Source: an uncultured Acidimicrobiales bacterium (GTDB lineage Bacteria > Actinomycetota > Acidimicrobiia > Acidimicrobiales > SHLQ01). Taken from it: 64,000 nt of DNA. Within the stretch, counting starts at the first letter, position 1. The number at the start of each line of letters is the position of its first letter. The notes under the pieces were generated by a model, which saw only the letters and a program-made list of their open reading frames with translations, was not told the origin of the DNA and ran no database searches. The position numbers and the translations under genes are program-made. Below, one piece after another: positions 1 to 3,335 of the stretch. The stretch lies in assembly GCA_938041035.1 (NCBI GenBank), contig CALHYX010000024.1:1-64000 (forward strand), read 5' to 3'.

Positions 1-1691
1 GGGAGCTTGTCCTGGAGGTCGTCGACGCCTTTGCGGTCGAGTTTGGCGATTTGGGCGAAGGTGGTGATGCCTTGTTTGTTGAGCATCTTTTCGAGCTGGG
101 GTCCCACGCCGGAGATCAGCTTGAGGTCGTCCTTCTTCGCCTTCACACGAGCCGGTTGTGCCGGCTTGGCGACCGCTGAGGGTTTCGCCGGTGCGGTGGC
201 TCGAGGCTGAGCCTTCAGAGCTGCGAGCTGGGATTCGAGCTCGCTGATGCGCTTTTCGCGAGCGGCCAGGTCGGCCCGGCTCTGGGCGCTCAGCTGGCCG
301 GTCCGATCCTCGGCGGCGCCGAGTTTGCCTTCGAGCTCGGCGATGCGGGCGTTCCGGGAAGCGAGGTCCTTTTGCAACTGACCTTCGAGTTCGGCGATGC
401 GGGCGTTCCGGTCGGCCAGTTCCTTCTTGAGCTGCGCCTCGAGTTCGGCGATGCGGGCATCGCGCTCGGACACCCGGCTCTCGACCTCTCCTTCGAGCTG
501 CACGACCCGATTGTTGGACTGACCCAGCCGGCGCTCGAGATTGGACATCAGCTCCGCTCGGTTGGCGAGCTCGGCTTCGGCTTCGCTGACCCGGGTGCTG
601 GCCTGGCCGAGCTGGGCTTCGAGTTCGGTGGCGCGGGTGGTGGCGGCGTCGTTGGCCGATTGGAGGTTGGCGTAGTCGCCCTGGAGGCTGGAGAACTGGG
701 CGGCCTGGCCCTGGGCGGAGCCGAGTTGGCCTTCGAGCTCGGTGGCTCGGGTGTTGGCCTGGCCGAGTTGGCCTTCGAGTTCGGTGGCTCGGGTGGTGGC
801 CTGACCGAGTTGGCCTTCGAGTTCGCCGACCCGGGTGGTGGCCTGGCCGAGTTGGCCTTCGAGCTCGTCGACCCGGGTGGTGGCCTGGCCGAGCTGGCCT
901 TCGAGATCCTCGGCCCGGTTGGTCGCGGTACCGAGCTTGGATTCGAGATCGCCCACATGTTCGTAGGCGCCGGCCAACTTGGCTTCGCTCTCCGCCGCCC
1001 GATTGGTCGCCAAGCCCAGCTGGCTTTCGAGTTCGGTGGCGCGGGTGGTGGCGGCGTCGTTGGCCGATTGCAGGTTGGCGTAGTCGCCCTGGAGGCTGGA
1101 GAACTGGGCGGCCTGGCCCTGGGCGGAGCCGAGTTCACCCTCGAGTTCGCCGACCCGGGCGTTGGCCTGGCCGAGTTGGCCTTCGAGCTCGCCGACCCGA
1201 CCGTTGACCCGGCCCAGCTCTGCCTCGAGTTCGGTGGCGCGCTTGGCGGATGTGTCGGCCTGGCGCCGGAGCACCCCATGGGCCTCTTCGGCGGTCGTCA
1301 GGTCGGCCTTCGCCGTCGAAAGGTCCGAGGACAGCGTCGCCAGTTGGGATCGGTAACCCTGCACTTCGCCCGAGAGGGAACCGACCTTGTCCTCGGCACT
1401 CGTCGATGCCGACCGGGCGGTCTCCACCTCGCCCTGCATCCGGGTCAGCTGCGCTGACAGCCGCGAGGTCTCGCCCTCGAGTTCGGTGCGGCGGGCCTCG
1501 AGGTCACCGGTGTGGCTCGTGAGCCGCTGAATCTCGGCTTCGCTGGTCGACTTGTGCTGCGTGAGGGTGTCCCACTCGGTCGAGGTGACCTTGCGGCGTC
1601 GCCACCGCCAGGTGAGCCATCCGAGCACCAACCAGCCAAAGAGCATGGAGGCCAGGAGGGGGAGCCATAGTTCCGCGAGTACGTATCGCAT
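1..1691 (-). CDS. Membrane-anchored coiled-coil protein with C-terminal helix-hairpin-helix (partial)
   Basis: Reading the minus strand from ATG at 1691 gives an open frame of 563 codons that runs off the left edge, so the C-terminus is missing. A GAAAGGA ribosome site lies about 9 nt upstream. Residues 4-26 form one membrane helix followed by WRWRRR. The next ~450 residues are a long heptad-type coiled coil built from repeated T-R-(A/V)-x-E-L-E-G-Q-L-G-Q-A units. An Ala/Pro-rich hinge then leads to DDLKLISGVGPQLEKML near residue 520, a helix-hairpin-helix fold of the kind found at the C-terminus of many 'helix-hairpin-helix domain-containing' membrane proteins. It starts 27 nt after the OmpA-like gene and is probably co-transcribed. 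Function is unknown; a scaffold linking membrane to DNA or nucleoid is an inference. Confidence 0.85.
   Translation of the reverse strand, partial: MRYVLAELWLPLLASMLFGWLVLGWLTWRWRRRKVTSTEWDTLTQHKSTSEAEIQRLTSHTGDLEARRTELEGETSRLSAQLTRMQGEVETARSASTSAEDKVGSLSGEVQGYRSQLATLSSDLSTAKADLTTAEEAHGVLRRQADTSAKRATELEAELGRVNGRVGELEGQLGQANARVGELEGELGSAQGQAAQFSSLQGDYANLQSANDAATTRATELESQLGLATNRAAESEAKLAGAYEHVGDLESKLGTATNRAEDLEGQLGQATTRVDELEGQLGQATTRVGELEGQLGQATTRATELEGQLGQANTRATELEGQLGSAQGQAAQFSSLQGDYANLQSANDAATTRATELEAQLGQASTRVSEAEAELANRAELMSNLERRLGQSNNRVVQLEGEVESRVSERDARIAELEAQLKKELADRNARIAELEGQLQKDLASRNARIAELEGKLGAAEDRTGQLSAQSRADLAAREKRISELESQLAALKAQPRATAPAKPSAVAKPAQPARVKAKKDDLKLISGVGPQLEKMLNKQGITTFAQIAKLDRKGVDDLQDKL
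618..727. repeat. 110-bp direct repeat, copy 1 (partner at 1026-1135)
   Basis: Positions 618-727 and 1026-1135 are nearly identical; I see a single G/C difference. The copies are exactly 408 bp (136 codons) apart, so both encode the same coiled-coil segment, including GSAQGQAAQFSSLQGDYANL, in the same frame. This looks like recent duplication or gene conversion inside the coiled-coil gene. Confidence 0.9.
1026..1135. repeat. 110-bp direct repeat, copy 2 (partner at 618-727)
   Basis: Second copy of the in-frame direct repeat inside the coiled-coil gene. Recombination between the copies would delete or add 136 residues without breaking the frame, so the length of the coiled coil may vary between strains. 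Confidence 0.9.
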
Positions 1692-1718
1692 GGTGTCTGT
1701 ATCCTTTCGGGGCCGGGC

Positions 1719-3017
1719 TTAGAACGTGGGTCGGGCAGTGAACTGCACCCGACGGTTCTGTTGGCGGCCGTCTTCGGTTTCGTTGTCGGCGACTGGTCGG
1801 TCCTCGCCGTACCCGTTCGATTGCAGCCGGGACAGGTCGATGCCCTGGCTTTCGAGGTACTCCCGCACCGAGTCGGAACGGAGCTGGCTGAGGTTCTGGT
1901 TGTAGGCGTCGTCGCCCTGGCTGTCGGTGTGACCCTCAACCTCGACGACGGGGAGCTGGTACCTCTGCATGGCGGCGACGACCTTGTCGAGGGTTGCTTT
2001 GGCCTCATCGGTGAGGGTTGCGTCAGCGCTGGCGAAGACCACGGTCTCGCTGATCTCCTGCTGGAGGGCGTCGAGTTCGCTCTGGAGCGCCTCGACCTCC
2101 TCGTCGAGGGTCAGCTCGGCCGGTTCGGCCGGCGCGACGGTGGTTTCGGGCGGTGCCGGTGCGGTGATCGTTCCGCTCACGTTGGCGACGTCGTCGACGC
2201 TCGCCAGGATGGCATCGAGGCCGTCTTTCGCGGCGTCGTCGGCCACCTCGGCGTTGACGTTGAGGTCTTCACCGGAGAGCGTTGCGGTACCCGAGATGAT
2301 GCCGGGACCCATGGCCGACAGCGCGCCGGCGAGGCCGGCGACCCGGTCGTCGGATCCGGTGATGCCCTCGGCGAGTCCGCTGACCGTCAGCTCATCGACC
2401 ACGTTGTCGGCTCCGACTGCGTCGGCGGCCGCGTCGACCAGCGTCGTGCGTTGGGCATCGTCGAGCACCTCGCCGGTGAGGGTGATGGTCTCACCGTCGG
2501 AGGTGGCGACGACGTCGACGATGCCCGTCTCGGGCGCAGGCGCTTCGGTGACCGGCGGGGGAGGTGGGGGAGGAGGTGCGGGCGCAGGTGCTTCGGTCAG
2601 GCCCGATACGTCGACGTCTCGTACCCCCCATTTGTCCTCGAGGGCGGCCACGGCATCGGCCGGCGTCTTGCCGGGCGGAAGTTCGCCGGTCAGGTCGGCA
2701 CCGCGCCAATCAAAATCGACGTCGACGTCGGTGATGCCCGCCTCGGCGAGGTGCCGAACCGCTTCCGCGGTGCGGTGGTCCTCGACATGAGGAATACCCC
2801 AGGCCATCGTGCCGGCGCCGAACAGGGCGAGGGCGGGAAGGCCGGCGAGGGCCGCCACCTTGGGCCAACCCCAGGGCATCTTGCCGTCGGTGGTGCCGTC
2901 GATCCAACGGGTTGTCGTGGTCGCCCGCTGGGTGGTGGTCGTCTGGGTGGTGCTGGTGGTACCGGCGGCTTTTTGGCGCGTCGAATCAGCACCGCGCTGA
3001 GGCGGCGTGGAAGCCAT
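1719..3017 (-). CDS. BON/OmpA-family envelope protein (ArfA-like)
   Basis: 432 residues from ATG at 3017. The order is a Thr-rich cytoplasmic tail (20-37), one membrane helix (about 53-74), a first BON-like segment (about 85-135), a poly-Pro spacer (about 143-155), two more BON-like repeats (about 162-280), and a C-terminal OmpA domain (about 320-432). The OmpA part has the peptidoglycan-binding pattern VEGHTDSQGDDAYN...LSQLRSDSV...NRRVQF, with the Asp and Arg expected to bind diaminopimelate. The architecture resembles mycobacterial ArfA (Rv0899), although the sequence match is only to the family. It probably tethers the membrane to the cell wall. The coiled-coil/HhH gene follows after 27 nt, suggesting a two-gene envelope operon. 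Confidence 0.85.
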   Translation of the reverse strand: MASTPPQRGADSTRQKAAGTTSTTQTTTTQRATTTTRWIDGTTDGKMPWGWPKVAALAGLPALALFGAGTMAWGIPHVEDHRTAEAVRHLAEAGITDVDVDFDWRGADLTGELPPGKTPADAVAALEDKWGVRDVDVSGLTEAPAPAPPPPPPPPVTEAPAPETGIVDVVATSDGETITLTGEVLDDAQRTTLVDAAADAVGADNVVDELTVSGLAEGITGSDDRVAGLAGALSAMGPGIISGTATLSGEDLNVNAEVADDAAKDGLDAILASVDDVANVSGTITAPAPPETTVAPAEPAELTLDEEVEALQSELDALQQEISETVVFASADATLTDEAKATLDKVVAAMQRYQLPVVEVEGHTDSQGDDAYNQNLSQLRSDSVREYLESQGIDLSRLQSNGYGEDRPVADNETEDGRQQNRRVQFTARPTF

Positions 3018-3335
3018 GAAGCGTCCCTTTCGTGTGCATCGTGATGCCGGGACTTCTCGGTGGCCAGGGAATGCAGGCCGCTACGGAGGCTCGGCGAAGA
3101 ATGGTCCGGCGTGGGTAACCGGGTTCAGGTACTGGACGTCCGGCGACCGCGTTTTGTCGCGAGATTCCGCCCTACTGGCCGCGGTTCCTCGATGCAAACC
3201 CGTGGATGTCGACGTAGCGTGACCGGGTCGGCGCGCTCTGTCGACCTTTCGTCGGATCGGCTCGACTTTCCGACGTTCTCGTCATCCGGGCACGTCGTCC
3301 GGGACTCGGCCTTTTGTCTCGTCCTCGTCGGCTGG
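3018..3335. other. Intergenic region without a supportable gene
   Basis: 318 bp separate the ATG of the OmpA/BON gene from the stop of the nitronate monooxygenase-like gene; both neighbours are on the minus strand. The open frames crossing it lack ribosome sites and recognisable sequence. It presumably holds the promoter of the OmpA/BON operon, but I could not pick convincing -10/-35 boxes. Confidence 0.6.

Follow-up and report, generated by a model that had tools for sequence, protein, structure and literature searches.

A recurring gene pair coding for an OmpA/BON protein and a membrane-anchored coiled-coil protein with a helix-hairpin-helix module in Acidimicrobiales and Alphaproteobacteria

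What do a peptidoglycan-binding OmpA/BON protein and a membrane-anchored coiled-coil protein ending in a helix-hairpin-helix (HhH) module do for the cell when their genes stand side by side? The question is raised by the left end of a 64,000-nucleotide stretch of DNA from an uncultured Acidimicrobiales bacterium (GenBank assembly GCA_938041035.1, contig CALHYX010000024.1), hereafter the window, which corresponds to C24:1-64000 of its genome (G000) and whose left edge is the contig end. Here an OmpA/BON gene (1719..3017, minus strand; an open reading frame (ORF) of 432 aa) is followed on the same strand by the gene for its coiled-coil partner (3..1691). The original prediction, made from the letters of the window, had described this adjacency, read the short gap between the genes as a sign of co-expression and proposed that the two products link cell wall, membrane and nucleoid. 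Both ORFs were found where it had placed them, and their domains were confirmed. The pair is a real, recurring two-gene system, and because it recurs in distant bacteria, the two proteins probably work together.

Recurrence of the gene pair

The HhH module was detected in 21 of 59 relatives, in 19 of 296 genomes from the phylum and in 40 of 385 genomes from the class of genome G347, which we take to be the Alphaproteobacteria (the module of Rhizobium lusitanum, L246, groups among the modules of that class). The original prediction had named a lack of conservation of the pairing as its refutation, and the gene-neighbourhood survey that it proposed returned the opposite: an OmpA gene adjoins 16 of the 40 usable further HhH genes of Actinomycetota and 10 of the 66 alphaproteobacterial ones, the latter 10 spread over 9 genomes, and every paired HhH gene codes for a membrane helix. 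Among the Alphaproteobacteria, 10 of the 25 HhH genes with such a helix have an OmpA neighbor versus 0 of the 41 without one (Fisher p 1.5e-5, not a strict probability as the rows are related). Besides the Alphaproteobacteria, the pair was found in five families of the window's order (f1, f5, f7, f17 and f18). The OmpA gene lies upstream of the HhH gene, with the sole exception of L109, where it lies downstream, and the distance between called ORFs ranges from -113 to 130 bp in 14 measured pairs. The window's genome has module matches (E 0.001) in only two genes, the partner and a paralogue of it (L053), and both are paired with OmpA. One pair is found on the Rhizobium lusitanum plasmid NZ_CP050307, and an additional one (L010) is cut by a contig end, leaving its HhH part out of view. 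In a Bradyrhizobium (L154:5272-7007), the gene after an OmpA/BON gene codes for a hydrophobic protein of 100 aa that lacks both a Pfam hit and an HhH module.

These counts began with 44 actinobacterial and 68 alphaproteobacterial module genes, of which 4 and 2, respectively, were dropped for having their 5' end cut or fewer than 400 bases visible upstream with no OmpA seen; all 4 from Actinomycetota are fragments at contig ends, including the window gene's own end (L115). Genes that agreed over their last 45 residues were treated as one copy, which folded L056 into L055 and L040 into L041. The window pair, the plasmid loci L246 and L247, the genes at G034:C52, G583, G657:C20 and G404:C2:230315, and eight weak phylum matches (E 1.1e-5 to 9.5e-4) are left out of the counts. 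For the scoring of pairs, ORFs ran from stop to stop and an overlap of up to 1300 bases was tolerated as a loose limit; only L053 needed more than 400. L049 was counted as a pair despite its partial module (19.4 bits). On a weak module tree (94 modules, 65 columns), 13 changes are required to account for the paired label, and the starred branches alone require at least 2 changes in Actinomycetota and at least 3 in Alphaproteobacteria. A single origin of the pairing was not recovered on this tree; the scatter of the paired label over it fits, on weak support, the repeated assembly or loss of the pair.

Layout of the locus and architecture of the two proteins

The first 93 bases of the window are repeated exactly at the end of contig C73, and reading the partner gene across this 93-bp overlap yields a protein of 586 aa, 563 of which lie in the window. 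It continues for 23 residues beyond the edge, completing one HhH module (terminus ...FPGRIRREEWVKQARRLAKNG), and then meets its stop codon, which starts at C73:29391. This extension of the left edge, which the original prediction had recommended, ruled out a different C-terminus past the window edge, as C73 merely completes the same module. The reading of co-expression is likewise supported by the layout: the gap between the two minus-strand genes is just 27 bp, with OmpA/BON coming first, and a Shine-Dalgarno-like sequence precedes each start, AAAGGGA (3024..3030) that of the OmpA/BON gene and AAAGGA (1702..1707, within the gap) that of the partner gene, both read directly from the minus strand. 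A nitronate monooxygenase-like gene lies 318 bp upstream of the OmpA/BON gene on the same strand, and past the partner's end, on C73, come a short-chain dehydrogenase gene in the opposite direction and then a dihydrouridine synthase gene. With the opposite-strand dehydrogenase on one side and the 318-bp gap on the other, the operon is probably limited to just the two genes.

In the first protein (this and all features that follow lie on the minus strand), the expected peptidoglycan-binding domain is identified at residues 328-422 (1752..2036) by Pfam, alignment and Foldseek; with 83.2 bits against a cut-off of 27.2 (PF00691, E 1.8e-23) it belongs with the OmpA-like peptidoglycan binders. Its residues D365 and R380, at the positions of the peptidoglycan contacts of Acinetobacter baumannii OmpA, do not vary in an alignment of relatives (12 of 12). 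The Asp/Arg pair is present in 26 of 27 OmpA ORFs from paired loci; a script matched 24 of them, inspection by eye added L040 and L109, and in L096 the Asp is missing. L010, L041, L056 and the window were outside this list. Thus, an outer peptidoglycan-binding domain, as originally predicted, is well in keeping with the sequence. A fasciclin domain is also found on the pair's OmpA proteins in another family (L111:6431-8056, L124:7816-9534).

N-terminal to the OmpA domain, an AlphaFold model (pLDDT 76.7, pTM 0.34) shows a membrane helix at residues 51-92, three BON-like units and a further helix at 304-325, and the model also contains the OmpA fold; the arrangement of the domains in this model is unreliable because of its low pTM. 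The core of the transmembrane helix, predicted from the model and a hydropathy of 1.75, spans residues 54-72 (2802..2858). The second BON unit (residues 168-212; 2382..2516) scores 25.7 bits against the Pfam BON model, slightly under the 27-bit cut-off, and is also backed by the Rv0899 BON profile match and the model; a profile of the BON region matches OsmY (8rjx, E 1.3e-8) and Rv0899 structures (E 1.7e-6 and 6.6e-6). The units on either side are named BON-like from a predicted strand-strand-helix-strand order in the first (residues 98-142; 2592..2726) and from the model and a block of conserved columns in the third (residues 222-285; 2163..2354). The best Foldseek match of the modelled protein in the PDB is Rv0899/ArfA (E 1.1e-13), a match by domains, given the whole-chain rmsd of 14.8; lower in the list are A. 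baumannii OmpA domains solved with glycine, diaminopimelate and peptide. By this domain composition the first protein is of the ArfA/OmpATb type.

The partner has an N-terminal transmembrane helix (residues 8-26; 1614..1670) followed by TWRWRRRK, from which the positive-inside rule predicts an N-out/C-in topology, opposite to that of the first protein's anchor. Behind it, residues 36-495 (207..1586) show the heptad periodicity of a coiled coil, with a heptad power of 6.23 against a maximum of 1.60 among 500 shuffles and with zero prolines and 41 glycines over 460 residues. The long cytoplasmic coiled coil of the original prediction is thus borne out at the level of sequence. Within it, 42-bp tandem repeats (720..953) correspond to units of two heptads (14 aa). 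The similarity of the partner to crescentin (Rod_CreS, 73.1 against a cut-off of 100) and to SMC proteins (84.5 against 729.4) is that of coiled coils alone, and membership in either family was rejected. Among relatives, the membrane core of the partner is constant while its cytoplasmic part changes: the smallest (L051, 71 aa) has no HhH module, L053 (193 aa) has one, and the largest (L043, 1075 aa) has three. A haloacid dehalogenase-like gene comes after both L051 and L053, which suggests a single type of locus in which the cytoplasmic part may be present or missing. In an alphaproteobacterial partner (L299:3019-4986), a very long acidic stretch separates the coil from the HhH module.

Carriers of the HhH module

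The partner ends in the HhH module, which spans residues 518-582 and of which the first two thirds (residues 518-563; 3..140) lie in the window and the rest on C73. Once completed, the module, with the pattern DDLK..GxGP..E..L...FxGRIxR..W..QA, scores 99.5 bits against a profile built here and belongs to the module type found on NuoE, ribosomal L21 and S2, and protein-O. The Pfam model HHH_5 is absent among the 25 of 72 families listed for the window partner, which is cut at the window edge, while a relative (L045) scores 36.9 bits with it against a cut-off of 27. Two PDB matches of the module are strong, namely protein-O of a photosynthetic complex (8yy9 chain O, E 3.7e-24) and a complex I subunit (E 1.2e-23); the third, a ribosomal protein, reaches only E 0.002. 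Family models place the same C-terminal module on NuoE and the ribosomal proteins L21 and S2, and our survey adds L22 and a multi-helix iron-sulphur protein. The L22 fusion (L110:3448-4389; Pfam E 8.5e-38) is from a genome of the order Acidimicrobiales, has the module in its C-terminal part and lies within an apparent ribosomal gene cluster. The multi-helix membrane protein, seen at eight loci (L098, L101, L102, L104-L107 and L112), ends in one to three HhH modules, with OmpA beside none of the eight, and is an iron-sulphur protein by Pfam in L106 (CCG, 4Fe-4S and nitrate reductase gamma-like).

These carriers differ from the window's partner in several respects. NuoE, the ribosomal L21, S2 and L22 and similar fusions share the C-terminal module and have no membrane helix, and 0 of 41 such alphaproteobacterial genes are OmpA-adjacent. 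A further likeness is to protein-O of the reaction center-light-harvesting complex (RC-LH1) of Dinoroseobacter shibae, which, according to the accessible text of its report, combines a membrane anchor and a flexible linker with the same C-terminal module, is coded between nuoE and nuoF, and differs in having two membrane helices; that text describes no coiled coil, mentions no OmpA partner, leaves open what the module does, and states that the module could not be traced in the map (PMC12079452). Docking of the partner's tip on NuoE-like or ribosomal carriers of the module in the same cell was ruled out for the window's genome, whose module matches (E 0.001) sit only in the two OmpA-paired genes.

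Kinship with the Arf locus and candidate roles

The architecture of the first protein, with an N-terminal membrane helix, a BON region and a C-terminal OmpA domain, is that of mycobacterial ArfA/OmpATb (Rv0899). In the mycobacterial Arf locus (L057), which represents the known system nearest to the pair, ArfA (329 aa) is followed by the 50-aa ArfB (Rv0900) and then by a gene for a membrane helix with a long linker, presumably the one named ArfC (Rv0901). Unlike in the Arf operon, the first protein of the window has three predicted BON units, and the next gene codes for the coiled-coil/HhH partner. The ArfB model NF051435 has no match in the window's genome at E 0.001 (ArfC was not searched for), and it is not among the 25 of 48 families listed for the window's partner; an Arf operon with a true ArfB was thus ruled out. 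As the partner fails the ArfB model though the first protein has the ArfA architecture, we do not assign the pair to the Arf operon type; by analogy, it may function as Arf-type systems do, though with another accessory protein. The BON domain of the first protein also occurs in OsmY and other BON proteins, which are not known to have an OmpA domain or a rod partner. The original remark that the pair was not known as a described system holds for the partner, for which no described counterpart was found, and not for the first gene, which is of a known type. Literature searches returned no account of an OmpA/BON and rod pair, with the proviso that a 2011 article by Marassi on the Rv0899 family in nitrogen-fixing bacteria, known by title alone, may mention neighbours; as far as these searches show, the system is new in its partner protein.

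We give an even chance to the reading that the pair is an operon coding for an envelope complex of the Arf type, with an accessory protein that extends into the cytoplasm as a rod and ends in a docking tip. The first protein would be held in the membrane by its single helix, with the BON units at the outer membrane face and the OmpA domain gripping peptidoglycan. The partner would lie beside it in the opposite topology, perhaps in physical contact and in some oligomeric state, its membrane helix representing a shared, ArfB-like core. The coiled coil, whose 460 residues would measure about 70 nm at full extension, would form a cytoplasmic rod, the length of which could be altered by gain and loss of repeats, and the C-terminal HhH module might dock on a protein or nucleoprotein of the cytoplasm. 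The complex would then hold a cytoplasmic component at a defined spacing from a membrane site anchored to the wall, and such a tether role is plausible.

The nature of the tip is where this reading parts from the nucleoid link of the original prediction, by which the HhH module would bind DNA and tie the chromosome to wall-anchored membrane sites. The hairpin is indeed part of a recurring HhH module; to call it DNA-binding goes beyond the sequence. The modelled module (pLDDT 82.1, pTM 0.62) resembles the HhH elements of DNA polymerase theta, RAD51 and Hel308 as well as a C-terminal stretch of NusA with VIA Z of 6-8, values below 8 that are not decisive and may reflect only a common arrangement, and Foldseek gave it no match with an E of 0.001 or lower. 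Net charge is +5 in the window's module and +1 to +3 in those of four close paralogues that are unpaired (L097, L099, L100 and L108); against this, the net charge is negative in 34 of 38 modules from 22 paired loci, with a minimum of -10, the other non-negative cases being L096 (+2), one of the modules of L143 (+1) and L255 (0). A Glu follows GIGPxx in nearly all aligned copies. As paired modules are mostly acidic and the module caps NuoE-like, ribosomal and photosynthetic-complex proteins with no pointer to DNA, the nucleoid link is unsupported; a docking module is more likely than a DNA binder at this tip, and a wall-to-nucleoid tether appears unlikely.

The kinship with ArfA can also be taken further, toward an adaptation to pH or ammonia in which the amount of the first protein, or its assembly, is under the partner's control. 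Two reports tie OmpATb, the function of which is disputed, to ammonia secretion and growth in acid (PMC3816664) and describe Rv0900 as a small membrane protein with a role in the post-transcriptional regulation of OmpATb (PMC3618439). A gene for the nitrogen regulator P-II (GlnK-like) lies at most a few kb from the OmpA gene in L040, L041, L044, L045 and L048; in L048 there is no HhH partner, and in L044 the P-II gene is accompanied by one for an aquaporin and diverges from the OmpA genes. The window's own neighbours, the nitronate monooxygenase-like, dehydrogenase and dihydrouridine synthase genes, show no such link, and the 460-residue rod and its HhH module would be left unexplained, so that we hold a stress function of this kind to be doubtful. 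That common modular parts became adjacent by chance and were inherited without a joint function gains something from the abundance of OmpA domains in the window's genome (13 matches) and from the many HhH genes that stand without OmpA. It is very unlikely, given that the alphaproteobacterial adjacency is confined to membrane-anchored HhH proteins, with the above reservation about related rows, and that the pairing recurs in two phyla with different linkers.

Several observations weigh against the docking-rod complex that we favor. In Actinomycetota, with the window pair aside, OmpA neighbors 16 of 36 HhH genes with a membrane helix versus 0 of 4 without, a contrast that alone proves nothing with only 4 usable helix-less genes (p 0.14), and 12 of the 28 actinobacterial HhH genes with a single helix lack an OmpA neighbor. 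The nearest row to the window's module on the tree is an unpaired one (L116, 71% identity). The four unpaired paralogues named above are of the rod type, so a rod can exist without an OmpA partner; they combine a membrane helix, coiled coil and HhH module, and in L097 and L108 the preceding gene codes for a 136-aa cyclic-nucleotide-binding protein. Conversely, the relatives L048, L051 and L052 have an OmpA/BON gene without an HhH partner, and L095 has a BON protein without a detected OmpA domain. Among nine alphaproteobacterial paired OmpA ORFs scanned for BON (those of L281 and L290 being cut), the domain is over the cut-off in three (L143, L246 and L299), weak in two (L290 and L292) and absent in four (L252, L274, L281 and L282); with BON weak or absent in six of the nine, the first protein is not always ArfA-like outside the window's order. 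Finally, the kinship to ArfB is weak; it is seen in the membrane anchor of the paralogue L053, which scores 17.8 bits against the curated cut-off of 40.

Somewhat short of an even chance, we tentatively extend the docking-rod complex to a broader proposal, in which wall-anchored OmpA proteins and membrane-anchored rods with HhH tips would constitute a class of envelope-to-cytoplasm tethers that spans phyla, has so far escaped description and was put together on more than one occasion, with a fixed membrane core and the rod as an adjustable spacer. The pairing itself, which spans bacteria as distant as Acidimicrobiales and Rhizobium, joins an OmpATb-type protein to an HhH module and gives each of them a partner for tests. 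If the rod is a spacer, these bacteria would have a means of keeping cytoplasmic components at a fixed spacing from the wall.

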